From Microcaldota archaeon (GTDB taxonomy: Archaea > Micrarchaeota > Micrarchaeia > Anstonellales > Bilamarchaeaceae), in NCBI GenBank assembly GCA_018812715.1, contig JAHJCT010000011.1:1-64000 (forward strand): 64,000 bases of DNA, in the 5' to 3' direction. Below the pieces are notes generated by a model, which searched no databases, was not told where the DNA came from, and saw only the letters and a list, made by a program, of their open reading frames with translations. Below are positions 55,557 through 60,759 of this stretch, piece after piece. Position numbers and translations under genes: made by a program. Positions within the stretch are counted from its first letter, which is position 1, and each line of letters starts with the position of its first letter.

Positions 55557-56880
55557 TTATTTCAATATCTCATCAACTAATTCTGTAAGACTTCCTTTTC
55601 TCTCTTTAATACTGTAATTAATGTGCAAAACAGGAATATCTACTTTCAGAATTTTTGTTAAGTCTACAGGAGTTCCTGAAATCACAACATCTGCTCCACT
55701 TTTGTTTATTGTTTCTGCAAGATCTTCAATTTGCGTGCCATAATATCCCATTGCAGGTACTACCTTTTCCAGGTGTGGATACTTTTCATAAGTTTCTTTT
55801 ATGCTCCCAACTGCATGAGGCCTTGGATCTATAATTTCAGCTCCATTCTTGCGTGCATATTCAAATCCTGCACCAAAAGTCATGCCACCATGCGTAACAG
55901 TTGGGCCATCCTCAACAACAATTGCTTTTTTCCCGTTTATATCCATCTTCTTATCTGCTGTAAGCTCCAAATCTGTTTCCAGAACCTTTGCATTAGGATT
56001 AGCCTTCTCCACATTCTTCATTATTCTCTTTACATCAGCAGGGTTTTCTTCGACTTTGTTTATCACTATTACATCAGCTGATCGGAAATTTGTCTCTCCT
56101 GGATAATAGTACATTTCATGTCCAGGCCTTAATGCATCAGCAACTACGAAATAAAGATCTGATTTAATGAATGGCATATCATTATTTCCCCCATCCCATA
56201 TTACAACATCTGCTTCTTTCTCTGCTTCTTTAAGTATCTCAGCATAATCTATTCCAGCATAAACAACAATTCCATTTTTGATGTGTGGTTCATATTCTTC
56301 TCTTTCTTCTATGGTGCACTCGTGCTTGTCAAGATCTTCCATAGTTGCAAATCTTTGTATTTTTTGCTTTGCCAAATTCCCATACGGCATAGGGTGTCTT
56401 ATAACTACAGTCTTTATTCCTCTTTCTTTCAGTATTTTTGTAAGCGTACGGGTAAGCGGACTTTTTCCACACCCAGTTCTTACAGCTGTTACTGCTATGG
56501 TTTTCTTTTCACTTTTAAGCATCGTTTCTCTGGGACCTAAAAGAACAAAACTTGCTCCACTTGCTTGCGTACGGGAAGCAAGATGCATAACATATTCATG
56601 AGACACATCAGAGTATGAAAAGTATACTTCATCTACCGAATGCTCTTTGATTAGTTTTTCCATATCTTTCTCATCATAAATTGCTATGCCTTCAGGGTAA
56701 AGCTTTCCTGCTAATTCTGGCGGATATTTCCTGCCTGCAATTTTTGGTATCTGGGTTGCAGTAAACCCAACTACTTGATAAGCAGCATTACTTCGAAAAA
56801 ACATATTGAAGTTATGGAATTCGCGAACCTTCTGGCTAATCACGTCCTGCTGCACCGAGTATCAAAACCTTCTTTTTCAT
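55557..56880 (-). CDS. cpgS: Cyclic 2,3-diphosphoglycerate synthetase, interrupted by a 19-nt BHB intron
   Basis: The gene starts at ATG 56880: MKKKVLILGAAGRD (exon 1, 56839-56880) and then TAG. In another frame from 56819 to 55557 (420 codons) it continues FHNFNMFFRSNAAYQ...; joining the two gives a 434-residue enzyme whose start matches the family pattern GAAGRDFHNFN. Walker A AVRTGCGKS and YPPELAG, SYSDVSHEYVMHLASR follow. The product cyclises 2,3-DPG using ATP, or in non-methanogens an uncharacterised relative. The minus-strand TATA TTATTAAAAT (56901-56910) sits 25.5 nt before the ATG, inside the LAGLIDADG ORF. An unspliced protein from GTG 56855 would lack the Rossmann glycines. Confidence 0.87.
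56820..56838 (-). other. Predicted 19-nt bulge-helix-bulge intron in cpgS mRNA
   Basis: In the RNA sense: outer helix GGA/TCC, central 4-bp helix CGTG/CGCG (one G-U), bulges ATT and AAT, inner helix AGCC/GGTT (one G-U), loop AGAA. Cleavage after the second base of each bulge releases TAGCCAGAAGGTTCGCGAA and joins GGACGTGAT to TTCCATAAC, restoring frame and GRDFH. All elements of the strict hBHBh' motif recognised by archaeal tRNA-splicing endonuclease are present. RNA evidence is needed for proof. Confidence 0.82.
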
Positions 56881-57916
56881 GCTCTCTACTCTCATTTAGC
56901 ATTTTAATAAGTTCCTCTCCTCTTTTTGAAAGTGAATAAAATTTGAAATATGGTGCATCACTTCCGGTTACACGTTTTTTTATGACTTTTGTCAAACCAA
57001 AATAAGTATCTTTTCCTAATGCATCTCTAACTGACCAATGAGAACGATTTGTTTTATCTGCAATCTCATTTATCAAAAGAGGTGGGCTGTCCATTAAAAT
57101 AGACCAATATCTCATATGTGAACGCGTGTATTGTTTTCTCAGATAACATTTTATCAATTTAGTCCATTGTCTTTTGGATGAACTAAAATGCCCATCAAGA
57201 ATTAAATTTGTCATATTATGTACGCCAGTAATGCTTATCTCAAATGAGCCTTTTGTATATCGTATACGTGGTACTGTATCATACAATTCTTTGAAACAAT
57301 CATAAAGGAAATCTTTCATATCTCCATCTTTGACAGTTATGCAGATTCCATACAAGTATCCATTTCTCTGAAGGATGGAGCCATCACCAACTTCATACCC
57401 ATCTAAGAAACTTTTTGTAAGATCTTTATTGTTTTTTATTATCTGAAGTGATTTTTTTACAATCTTATTGAAAATAATTGCAAAAATGGTATTGTGTATT
57501 CGTAAGTCAACAATATCCTGTCTCGCTTTTTTGGTATTATTCGCTTTAATGTGCTCTATATCTAATTTCTTTTTCCACAATTTTTCAATTTTATTTAAAT
57601 TCTTTCTATCCATCGGAGTTTTGATATATGCTCTCCACATCTTACTATTGACACCAAATTCCTTTTCTATTGCCCTCTTGAATTTTTCTATCAATTCTAT
57701 TTCACGATTTGCTATTCCAATACCAGAGTACATTTGTTTAGATCCCTCAGCAATAAAAAATCCGATTAACCAAGCTACCTCTTTGTTTATACTGATGTAT
57801 CGTGCCATCTCAATTTTTGTTCTTTTTGAGGCACTAACTAAAACTAATTTTTCATTATTCTTACTATAGATTGTTTCGTTACTAATAAGGTTTTCTATGT
57901 CTAATTTTTCTATCAT
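56840..57916 (-). CDS. LAGLIDADG homing-endonuclease-like protein
   Basis: 358 residues. Two LAGLIDADG motifs: WLIGFFIAEGSKQ near residue 50 and FLDGYEVGDGS near 175, i.e. a monomeric double-motif enzyme. The C-terminal 100 residues include a winged-helix-like stretch (LLINEIADKTNRSHWSVRDA ... FYSLSKRGEELIKML), not usual for plain endonucleases. It has its own TATA-like TTTATTAATT (about 57936-57946). The 3' end runs through cpgS exon 1 in another frame and stops (TGA 56840-56842) one base before the intron splice site. Catalytic Asp/Glu are retained, so it may be active; a transcription-factor role (WhiA/LAGLIDADG-HTH type) is the alternative. Confidence 0.8.
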   Translation of the reverse strand: MIEKLDIENLISNETIYSKNNEKLVLVSASKRTKIEMARYISINKEVAWLIGFFIAEGSKQMYSGIGIANREIELIEKFKRAIEKEFGVNSKMWRAYIKTPMDRKNLNKIEKLWKKKLDIEHIKANNTKKARQDIVDLRIHNTIFAIIFNKIVKKSLQIIKNNKDLTKSFLDGYEVGDGSILQRNGYLYGICITVKDGDMKDFLYDCFKELYDTVPRIRYTKGSFEISITGVHNMTNLILDGHFSSSKRQWTKLIKCYLRKQYTRSHMRYWSILMDSPPLLINEIADKTNRSHWSVRDALGKDTYFGLTKVIKKRVTGSDAPYFKFYSLSKRGEELIKMLNESREHEKEGFDTRCSRT

Positions 57917-58004: not shown

Positions 58005-58883
58005 ATGCGTATTGTAATAGCATTGGGAGGAAATGCTCTCTTACCTAAAGGGGCAAAAGGCACTGCAGGCGAGCAATTAGATGCTGCAAAAAAAGCAATA
58101 ACAGAAATCGAAGATGTTCTTAAAAAAAATCAAGTTGTTTTGACACACGGAAATGGTCCGCAGGTTGGTAATCTCTTGCTTCAGCAATCTGGTACAAAGG
58201 AAGTAGCAGAAATGCCCTTAGATGTTCTTGATGCAATGACTCAAGGGCAGATAGGTTATTTTATCGCCAGTGCAATTTCTTTAACTGGCCTTCACTCAGC
58301 AACTCTTATTACTAGAGTTGTTGTTGATCCTGAAGACAAGGCATTTGAGAATCCAACAAAACCAGTAGGGCCTTTTTATGAAAAACAAATAAAGCCAGGA
58401 ATGAAAATGGATGCAGGGCGTGGATATAGGCTTGTTGTTCCTTCGCCTACGCCACTCAAGATAAGGGAACACGATGCTATTAGTGCCCTTTTAGAAAGAA
58501 ATTTCGTAGTCATTGCAGTTGGGGGTGGGGGAATACCAATAAAAAATAATGGTGAAGGGCTTGAAGCAGTAATTGATAAAGATAAAGCCACCTCTCTTCT
58601 TGCAACACAGATAAATGCAGATCTCCTTGTTTTTGTTACTTCTGTTGATTGTGTTTATCTTAATTTTGGCAAGCCTAATCCGTCTAAACTTTCAAAAACA
58701 AGTATTTCAATTGCCAAAAAATATATGGCAGAAGGGCACTTTGCTGAGGGCAGTATGAAACCTAAAGTTGAATCTGTAATAAAGTTCTTGGAAAATGGGG
58801 GCAAGAAAGCAATCATTTGTTCTATAAATAATATTCGTTTAGCATTACAGGAAAAAGCAGGAACAATAATCTCAAACGTCTAA
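58005..58883 (+). CDS. arcC: Carbamate kinase
   Basis: 292 residues, amino-acid-kinase fold. MRIVIALGGNALLPKGA begins the fold, LTHGNGPQVGNLLLQQ binds carbamate, PSPTPLKIREHDAISALLE is the regulatory/PK subdomain and VIAVGGGGIPI and VTSVDCVYLNFG complete the active site. It interconverts carbamoyl phosphate + ADP with carbamate + ATP, giving ATP from arginine/agmatine or purine catabolism. A TATA-like CTTAAATTTAG lies about 25 nt before the ATG. The last 12 nt overlap the convergent archease gene. Confidence 0.94.
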   Translation: MRIVIALGGNALLPKGAKGTAGEQLDAAKKAITEIEDVLKKNQVVLTHGNGPQVGNLLLQQSGTKEVAEMPLDVLDAMTQGQIGYFIASAISLTGLHSATLITRVVVDPEDKAFENPTKPVGPFYEKQIKPGMKMDAGRGYRLVVPSPTPLKIREHDAISALLERNFVVIAVGGGGIPIKNNGEGLEAVIDKDKATSLLATQINADLLVFVTSVDCVYLNFGKPNPSKLSKTSISIAKKYMAEGHFAEGSMKPKVESVIKFLENGGKKAIICSINNIRLALQEKAGTIISNV

Positions 58884-59300
58884 GATTGCAAATGCCTTCC
58901 ATGCATCTGTTTTTTCTACTTTATACATATGCCAGCTGACTGCTTTAACATCAACAATCATATGGTGTTTTTTGTTGTCAATTTTTTCACCTTTCAATGA
59001 TGCTTCAAGTATTATTTCTTCTCTTTTTTTGGAAAATTTAAGTTCATATTTGCTAAAAATAAGCATCTCAGCATCTTTGTAGAATACAATCTCAGAAAGA
59101 AAATTATGGAGAAGCTTTTCTTCAGTGGTTGATTTCAGGCAAAATGTTACTGTTTCCTTTGCTTCTATTTTTTCAGGATTTTCTATCATTGAATTTGTTA
59201 AAGCTCTTCCTGCACTTTCAAAAAGTTCTTCCAGTGTTTTTCCTGTGGCTTCAAATGCCACATCAGCCATTGCAACTCCTTCAACAAATTTGTACGGCAT
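58872..59300 (-). CDS. Archease (RtcB activator)
   Basis: 142 residues, the archease fold: DVAFEATGKTLEELFESAGRA at the N-terminus and VSWHMYKVEKTD ... FAILDV at the end. Archease speeds up RtcB guanylation and widens its use of cofactors. It lies 1 nt downstream of rtcB on the same strand, so the two form an operon for tRNA and other RNA ligation. The acidic Asp used in metal binding is at position 13 (MADVAFEA). Confidence 0.93.
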   Translation of the reverse strand: MPYKFVEGVAMADVAFEATGKTLEELFESAGRALTNSMIENPEKIEAKETVTFCLKSTTEEKLLHNFLSEIVFYKDAEMLIFSKYELKFSKKREEIILEASLKGEKIDNKKHHMIVDVKAVSWHMYKVEKTDAWKAFAILDV

Positions 59301-59301
59301 C

Positions 59302-60759
59302 CTATCCCTTTACATTACCCAAAGGCAGAAGTTTTACGACCTTCTTTGATATACCTGCATTATGTGTTGATTCTATTACTTCATCTATTGGCTTATATGC
59401 TCCACCTGCTTCTTCAGCAAGACCAGCAAACGATACAGTTTTGATATAAATTCCTTTTTTCTCTAATTCTTTTTGCAATGTGTCTCCTCTGTATTTGCGT
59501 TTTGCTTCTGCCCTGCTCATAACCCGTCCTGAACCATGTGCTGTAGTAAACCATGTTTCTTTTGCACTTTCCTGCCCTACAAGAAGCCAGGAACCAGTTT
59601 CCATGCTTCCGCCTATTAGTATTGGCTGGCCATCGTCTCTGTAAAACGGTGGGATCTCTTCGCGTCCTGGTCCAAATGCTGCGGTGGCACCTTTTCTATG
59701 TACTATAAGCTCACGCATTTGTCCATCAACTTCATGTTTTTCAACAGATGCTCTGTTATGACAGATATCATAGATCTGATGCATTCCAAGATCTTCTGCA
59801 CTTTGCCCAAATATTTTTGCAAAGCTTTCTCTTATTCTATGTGCTATTGTCTGTCTGTTAGCAAAACCCATATTCACAGCACAACTCATTGCAGCAAAAT
59901 AATCCTGTCCTTCTGGAGAATTGAAAGGTGCCGAAGCAAGTTCCTTATCAAGTATTTTGATCTTATATTTGCTCTCCATCACATTTAGGAAAAGATCCAG
60001 GTAATCACTTGCTACTTGATGGCCAAAACCCCTACTACCACAATGAAACATAACTACTATTTGATCAGGAAAGATGCCCCATTTCTTTGCAAGTTTTTCA
60101 TCTACAATGTTTTCTTCTTTAACATGTTGAATTTCCAGATAATGATTTCCAGAACCCAATGTTCCGACCTGATTAAGTCCTCTTTTTATTGCTTTTTTGC
60201 TTACCTTACTTGAATCTGCTTCTTTGACTCCACCATACATCTCGGTTCTTTCTAAATCCTCTTTCCATCCATATCCTTTTTCTACACACCATTTAGCTCC
60301 GGTATCCACTAATTCATTGAATTCGTTTGGATTCAATTTCAAAATACCAGAGCTTCCTACGCCGGCAGGAACGTCTTTGTAAAGAGTGTCAACCAATTGA
60401 TGAAGTTTCGGTTTTACATCGTTGATAGTAAGATTTGTTCTAATTAATCTCATTCCACAATTAATGTCAAAACCAATTCCACCCGGGCTTATCACTCCTT
60501 CATTTACATCCATCGCTGCCACTCCACCTATGGGGAATCCGTATCCCGAGTGGCCGTCAGCCATACAAAATGCATATTTTTGGATTCCAGGAAGTGTTGC
60601 TACATTGCTTATTTGATCATAAACATGCAGGTCCATTTGATCAAGCAGGTTCTTACTGGCGTATATTCTTGCCGGAACTCTCATTCCTTCTTTATAGTCG
60701 GTTCCTATTTCCCAAATATAATCACTAATCTTTTTGAAATTCGGTTTTTTAAATTCCAT
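59302..60759 (-). CDS. rtcB: RNA ligase RtcB (tRNA-splicing ligase)
   Basis: 485 residues without an intein (archaeal rtcB often carries one). It joins 2',3'-cyclic phosphate to 5'-OH ends after splicing-endonuclease cleavage, using GTP and Mn2+. Signatures: the Mn ligand region GGIGFDINCGMRLIRT, MFHCGSRGFGHQVASDYL, ATAAFGPGREEIPP, and the guanylated His segment TTAHGSGRVMSRAEAKR. Together with archease it supplies the ligation step for the intron-rich tRNAs and the predicted cpgS intron in this window. Confidence 0.96.
   Translation of the reverse strand: MEFKKPNFKKISDYIWEIGTDYKEGMRVPARIYASKNLLDQMDLHVYDQISNVATLPGIQKYAFCMADGHSGYGFPIGGVAAMDVNEGVISPGGIGFDINCGMRLIRTNLTINDVKPKLHQLVDTLYKDVPAGVGSSGILKLNPNEFNELVDTGAKWCVEKGYGWKEDLERTEMYGGVKEADSSKVSKKAIKRGLNQVGTLGSGNHYLEIQHVKEENIVDEKLAKKWGIFPDQIVVMFHCGSRGFGHQVASDYLDLFLNVMESKYKIKILDKELASAPFNSPEGQDYFAAMSCAVNMGFANRQTIAHRIRESFAKIFGQSAEDLGMHQIYDICHNRASVEKHEVDGQMRELIVHRKGATAAFGPGREEIPPFYRDDGQPILIGGSMETGSWLLVGQESAKETWFTTAHGSGRVMSRAEAKRKYRGDTLQKELEKKGIYIKTVSFAGLAEEAGGAYKPIDEVIESTHNAGISKKVVKLLPLGNVKG

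Follow-up and report, generated by a model that had tools for sequence, protein, structure and literature searches.

Candidate bulge-helix-bulge micro-introns in conserved protein genes of DPANN-type archaea and their association with freestanding LAGLIDADG endonuclease genes

How can a conserved protein be made from a reading frame that meets a stop codon after 14 codons? The question is raised by a locus in an archaeal metagenome-assembled genome (MAG) of 1.27 Mb and 90% completeness. The 64,000-nt stretch analysed here, referred to as the window, is part of a 244-kb contig of this MAG. On the minus strand, a single-copy gene starts with ATG AAA AAG AAG GTT TTG ATA CTC GGT GCA GCA GGA CGT GAT (exon 1, 56839-56880, 14 codons), and this N-terminus is conserved in relatives. 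A 19-nt insert follows, TAGCCAGAAGGTTCGCGAA (56820-56838, minus strand), which opens with TAG and shifts the frame. The gene then continues with TTC CAT AAC TTC, the beginning of exon 2 (55557-56819, minus strand), which encodes FHNFN and runs through the stop codon. Removal of the insert gives a single uninterrupted protein of 434 aa, which starts with MKKKVLILGAAGRDFHNFN and contains the restored motif GAAGRDFHNFN. The original prediction for this locus had described the TAG after GGA CGT GAT and the resumption at TTC CAT AAC in another frame 19 nt on, with which the sequence agrees. It had also proposed that excision of the 19 nt restores frame and motif, and this is borne out by the 434-aa reading frame.

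The name cpgS, proposed at the same time, is only remotely supported. Solved cyclic 2,3-diphosphoglycerate synthetases give a weak and partial match (PDB 9sxb, E 3e-7, residues 207-319 only), and no Pfam family matched the protein. The gene is called cpgS-like here. Its exon 2 is intact and shares 73-76% identity with most members of the genus. Comparison with related genomes had been suggested as a check, with either the same insert or a clean GRDFHNF as the expected outcome. A total of 109 relative loci were inspected, 29 from whole-genome searches and 80 from public contigs, partly of the same genomes. The insert is missing from all 109, which carry an uninterrupted GGN-(CGN/AGR)-GAY-TTY-CAY and encode GAAGRDFHNFN or a close variant without a break. 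The micro-intron is known from one cpgS only.

The insert and its flanks can be folded into a strict bulge-helix-bulge (BHB) structure. It consists of a 3-bp outer helix (GGA/TCC), a central helix of 4 bp with one G-U pair (CGTG/CGCG), two bulges of 3 nt each (ATT and AAT), a 4-bp inner helix with one G-U pair (AGCC/GGTT) and the loop AGAA. Re-analysis found the same helices, bulges and loop that had been predicted. Among the cut offsets tested, a strict BHB occurs at one only, and this is the offset that restores the frame, a coincidence that had likewise been claimed. For random 19-mers placed in the same slot, the chance that the correct cut coincides with a strict BHB is p = 0.0018, and p = 0.0005 for one of the observed strength. 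Shuffling the actual 19 nt also gave p = 0.0005. The stability of the hairpin itself is unremarkable (z +0.57). According to ViennaRNA, the naked RNA favours by 1.3 kcal/mol (-8.2 vs -6.9 kcal/mol for the strict one) a shifted register that joins the closing U of the inner helix to the first bulge A and moves one bulge by one base. In this model, the strict register is therefore a minor conformer of the naked cpgS-junction RNA. In the genome of the window (labelled G000), the 99 genes with homologs in the reference set contain 775 candidates for a strict BHB, 16-60 nt in length. Their in silico removal improved the match to homologs for one candidate, the cpgS insert (+52 BLOSUM units). A frameshift scan against relatives from the genus, covering approximately 300 kb of G000 and blind to first exons as short as that of cpgS, revealed no further clear case.

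The machinery for BHB splicing is encoded in the same genome. The closest solved match of its splicing endonuclease is the epsilon2 endonuclease of ARMAN-2 (4fz2, E 4e-135), a type that has been linked to relaxed substrate recognition (PMC12397907). RtcB, the RNA ligase that joins exons in archaeal splicing (59302-60759, minus strand, PF01139, E 5e-165), and its cofactor archease (58872-59300, minus strand, PF01951, E 4e-35) are encoded within the window, 2.5 kb upstream of the cpgS-like gene. Several intron-bearing tRNA genes were predicted by ARAGORN, some of them interrupted over a long stretch or more than once. Long or non-canonically placed introns occur, for instance, in the tRNA genes at C7:147846-148009, C15:31784-31859 and C21:73616-73675. 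Only 14 tRNA matches were obtained at E 0.001, suggesting that further tRNA genes are hidden by introns. Besides the epsilon2 endonuclease, a second tRNA_int_endo-like protein of 160 aa is encoded at G000:C7:255843-256088 (L033). Its catalytic residues are seemingly absent by eye, and it is perhaps an accessory subunit.

The cpgS-like gene also has an unusual neighbour. While its micro-intron reading of the locus held, the original prediction overlooked a freestanding LAGLIDADG homing-endonuclease-like gene (56840-57916, minus strand, 358 aa, PF14528, E 1.3e-9) that overlaps exon 1. The motifs LIGFFIAEG and FLDGYEVGDG of this ORF are intact. Its 3' end covers all of exon 1 except the last base, and its TGA (56842-56840) stops one base short of the 5' splice site. 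Further upstream lies a divergent carbamate kinase gene (58005-58883, plus strand). In most genomes of the genus, the order archease, carbamate kinase (divergent), cpgS, dCTP deaminase-like is kept, and carbamate kinase adjoins cpgS with no ORF in the gap between them. No endonuclease was found in the examined flanks of the 109 intronless cpgS loci. In 99 relatives, no close homolog of the window endonuclease was detected, only weak matches. Matches to PF14528 were mostly inteins and were set aside. The neighbourhoods of the weak matches revealed a second micro-intron case.

In total, 16 further BHB micro-introns of 14-33 nt were found in archaeal rnhB, rtcB, tyrS and carB genes, which gives 17 in five genes together with cpgS. 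All 17 interrupt codons of conserved motifs, including the catalytic motifs of RNase HII and RtcB. The rnhB and rtcB introns were collected from 375 genomes with a pattern of two exon motifs separated by a gap, a search that is blind to endonucleases. The reversed pattern, used as a control in the same genomes, gave 0 matches. In rnhB, six genomes have an intron at the identical site, with a length of 14 nt in G000, 29 nt in G001 and 21 nt in each of G012, G017, G022 and G040. The window's own genome thus has a second micro-intron, TTATACAGCTGTAA, at DEAGRG^S (C7:166999-167012; L290/L269), with no endonuclease adjoining. G017 and G040 belong to the same family but to other genera; in both, an endonuclease ORF reaches the rnhB start and DEAGRG^S is split by 21 nt. 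The central helix is kept in both inserts (GCAG with CTGT or CTGC). The sequences of their inner helices differ, but the pairing persists (GGTA/TACC vs TTTGT/ACAAA). Each rnhB intron has a single cut that restores the motif, and this is the BHB cut.

The rtcB introns (27-33 nt) occupy two sites in eight genomes; in G153, for instance, MPDGHEGY^GFPIGG is interrupted by 32 nt. Two of the eight genomes (L295 in G322 and L302 in G357) lie outside the class of the window and show the same anatomy. The phenomenon is therefore not limited to one class. In tyrS of G062, a 19-nt intron is found at IGFEISG^YAHLGSG. The carB gene of G139 has a 32-nt intron at GQAAE^FDYSGTQ with an inner helix of 11 bp, and the endonuclease ORF of this locus continues into exon 1 of carB in the same reading frame. 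When each of the 17 introns was shuffled within its own exons, p values of 0.00025-0.027 were obtained. The combined value (~6e-31) is overstated since homologs at the same site are not independent; with only the strongest intron per gene considered, p is ~0.001 or less in all five genes. The weakest structures are those of the 14-nt and 29-nt rnhB introns and of the three rtcB introns in which 3 of the 4 central-helix pairs form.

A freestanding LAGLIDADG gene lies directly upstream of 8 of the 17 intron genes and often overlaps or abuts its host gene. These are cpgS, rnhB of G017 and G040, rtcB of G153, G119 and G019, tyrS of G062 and carB of G139. The G019 copy is shortened and decayed. The share is inflated, as the tyrS and carB introns were found via their endonuclease; among the 14 rnhB and rtcB introns from the endonuclease-blind pattern, five have one. 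The other nine of the 17 introns have no endonuclease in the DNA examined, some of them lying near contig ends. Endonucleases also occur upstream of genes with no visible intron, namely topA, a ychF-like gene, hisS and two rtcB genes. Because some introns have no nearby endonuclease and some endonucleases no intron, the pairing is common without being obligatory. No micro-intron was found in the genes beside endonucleases at thrS, pcna, infB, topA, hisS and the ychF-like locus. Endonucleases that share a target gene are mutual closest relatives across genera, with identities of 67% for rtcB, 61% for thrS, 54% for rnhB and 49-62% for loci around pcna.

Several further observations were made around these endonucleases. 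In two rtcB genes that have the endonuclease upstream but are intronless (L241 in G172 and L255 in G244), GYSFPIGG replaces GYGFPIGG, possibly a change of the target site that would give immunity without an intron. LAGLIDADG ORFs are also located directly 5' of intron-containing tRNA genes in various genomes, often overlapping the 5' end (L242, L246, L248, L259, L260 and L264), and this layout with an outside endonuclease is that of the protein genes. Many more copies are located in rRNA introns or immediately before tRNA genes, most of which have introns and some of which are overlapped at the 5' end. A possible truncated Nre-like gene was seen beside the endonuclease of L230. In G017, two different endonuclease genes have a near-identical leader in common (CAACCTCCAGCCTCTGCT...GTAAAAGTAAGGCGGCATAGGCATGGAGGT; L053:1300-1435, and L170 on the minus strand just upstream of the endonuclease start), a possible expression or mobility signal.

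How the 19 nt in the cpgS-like gene should be read can be weighed against these results. The insert could be a disabling mutation in a pseudogene, or translation could start at the internal GTG at 56855, an in-frame codon that opens a 432-aa ORF running through the insert (MQQDVISQKVREFHNFN...). Such a protein would be devoid of the first beta strand and of GAAGRD, a motif kept in 109 of 109 inspected loci. Both variants are improbable: exon 2 is intact, with the high identity to genus members given above, and neither explains the BHB at the exact frame-restoring cut or the recurrence of this anatomy in rnhB, rtcB, tyrS and carB, where the interrupted sites include catalytic motifs of RNase HII and RtcB. 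An assembly or sequencing error is more improbable still. The cpgS insert does rest on a single assembly of a MAG, in which population heterogeneity or a local error is conceivable. A unique 19-nt insert is, nonetheless, atypical of errors, and this one forms a strict BHB. Equivalent inserts are found in 16 other genes, nearly all in other assemblies, with six of differing lengths at one rnhB site. As an explanation for the whole class error is implausible, because the 17 cases come mostly from independent assemblies.

Programmed translational bypassing, in which the ribosome would skip the 19 nt that follow GAT, has a similarly slight chance of being correct. The short gap and the TAG right after the take-off codon would suit it. 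Matched codons, however, are missing, and bypassing accounts neither for bulges at exactly the right places nor for the presence of tRNA introns and EndA/RtcB. Unlike in the T4 gene 60 type, the take-off codon is GAT and the codon before the landing point GAA. The features by which BHB introns are recognised were found together: a junction BHB with cuts in the bulges (with the naked-RNA optimum shifted by one base on one side), a restored protein, and EndA, RtcB and intron-bearing tRNAs. Very probably, therefore, the 19 nt are a BHB-type intron that would be spliced from the cpgS-like mRNA by EndA and RtcB. This reading is favoured because it alone explains the frame, the motif, the fold, the machinery and the recurrence in rnhB, rtcB, tyrS and carB.

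From the insert, frame, fold, machinery genes and recurrence seen at the sequence level, we infer actual splicing and co-transcription as follows. The transcript would probably start upstream of the LAGLIDADG gene and run into cpgS. The junction RNA would fold into the BHB, the epsilon2-type endonuclease would cut within each 3-nt bulge, and RtcB and archease would join the exons, restoring GRDFHNF. Alongside endonuclease adjacency and the clustering of endonucleases by target, which are likewise sequence-level findings, we infer endonuclease specificity and mobility. At least some BHB micro-introns of DPANN-type archaea may well, though with considerable uncertainty, be mobile by collaborative homing with an outside, upstream LAGLIDADG endonuclease. 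The LAGLIDADG endonuclease would cut the intronless motif, and donor-templated repair would bring in the intron along with the short exon 1 and the endonuclease gene. Interrupted by the intron, the recognition site would be lost and the donor immune, while splicing would keep the protein. As collaborative homing would have it, endonuclease and intron are both missing from the unoccupied alleles (the examined flanks of 109 intronless cpgS loci, and the conserved gene order in most genomes of the genus), freestanding endonucleases adjoin intron genes, and their lineages cluster by target gene. A homing endonuclease is usually lost once the element is fixed, and the endonuclease-less introns and the decayed G019 copy hence fit homing. 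The conserved-motif insertion sites fit it as well, since conserved gene parts are the usual sites of homing elements and targets of their endonucleases (PMC2814812).

Alternatively, the intron may be real and spliced but unrelated to the endonuclease, having arisen and persisted passively, with the endonuclease an ordinary intronless-homing gene that lies upstream by chance. This is possible but on the unlikely side. Several micro-introns do lack a nearby endonuclease, several upstream endonucleases lack an intron, and the cbf5 introns are without one (PMC2738675). Chance adjacency is, in contrast, less easily reconciled with an endonuclease directly upstream of 8 of 17 intron genes, even as an inflated share, against 0 in the examined flanks of the 109 intronless cpgS loci, or with the 5 of 14 from the endonuclease-blind pattern. 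It also leaves aside that endonucleases cluster by target gene and that the introns sit in conserved motifs.

The nearest known system is the cbf5 gene of Crenarchaeota, whose pre-mRNA introns of 16-44 bp are cut by the tRNA splicing endonuclease EndA (Watanabe 2002; Yokobori 2009; PMC2738675). This range contradicts the original prediction that known archaeal pre-mRNA introns are longer than 19 nt. The 14-nt rnhB intron would undercut every cbf5 intron (minimum 16 nt). For the cbf5 introns, a passive origin and persistence has been proposed. As of 2009, splicing was confirmed in no other archaeal protein gene, and introns were predicted in others (PMC2738675). The present cases differ in the genes (cpgS-like, rnhB, rtcB, tyrS, carB), the hosts (DPANN-type archaea) and the enzyme (an epsilon2 endonuclease instead of the hetero-tetrameric crenarchaeal one). 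Moreover, they mostly have a strict BHB, include one intron of 14 nt, lie at motif codons and are often adjoined by a LAGLIDADG gene, of which cbf5 has none. A precedent for collaborative homing is F-CphI and the psbA group I intron of cyanophage S-PM2 (Zeng, Bonocora and Shub 2009; PMC6083498). There, too, a freestanding homing endonuclease gene lies beside the intron gene, and the intron would block self-cleavage. In contrast, that system consists of a ribozyme intron and an Endo VII-type enzyme in phages, with cleavage shown, whereas here micro-introns of the protein-spliced BHB type in archaeal chromosomes are combined with LAGLIDADG proteins and cleavage is presumed from sequence. Archaeal rRNA BHB introns carry LAGLIDADG genes inside a long intron. 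They share BHB splicing and the LAGLIDADG homing endonuclease with the present cases, in which the endonuclease gene instead precedes the host gene, outside an intron that has no room for a coding sequence. Putative splicing of 12-bp elements in rudivirus SIRV1 was reportedly described by Peng in 2004 (cited in PMC2738675). Like the micro-introns, these elements are predicted and very short, lie in archaeal protein genes and may be spliced, but they are viral.

In the open-access literature searched, no description was found of archaeal rtcB or rnhB introns or of a cpgS-type case with an outside endonuclease. As far as this literature shows, the novelty lies in the genes affected, their lineage, the interruption of catalytic or otherwise conserved motifs and an endonuclease encoded outside the intron. 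The 19-nt length itself is within the known range.

In the literature searched, cbf5 alone among archaeal protein genes has a BHB intron that is confirmed. Given the 17 candidates in five other genes, which targeted searches yielded in one lineage and a little outside it, the tRNA machinery would be a recurrent splicer of mRNAs in archaea with small genomes. Gene callers would overlook such elements, since all that remains to be called is an ORF lacking its N-terminal part. If true, the finding would account for conserved genes that look broken in MAGs. The gene of the exon-joining ligase RtcB hosts such introns in eight genomes, and the rtcB mRNA would therefore depend on its own product. If the proposal holds, a mobile element of two parts, one of them an extremely small intron, recurs in archaeal protein genes, and BHB introns of mRNAs would have a concrete origin, with a homing endonuclease encoded outside rather than within the intron.
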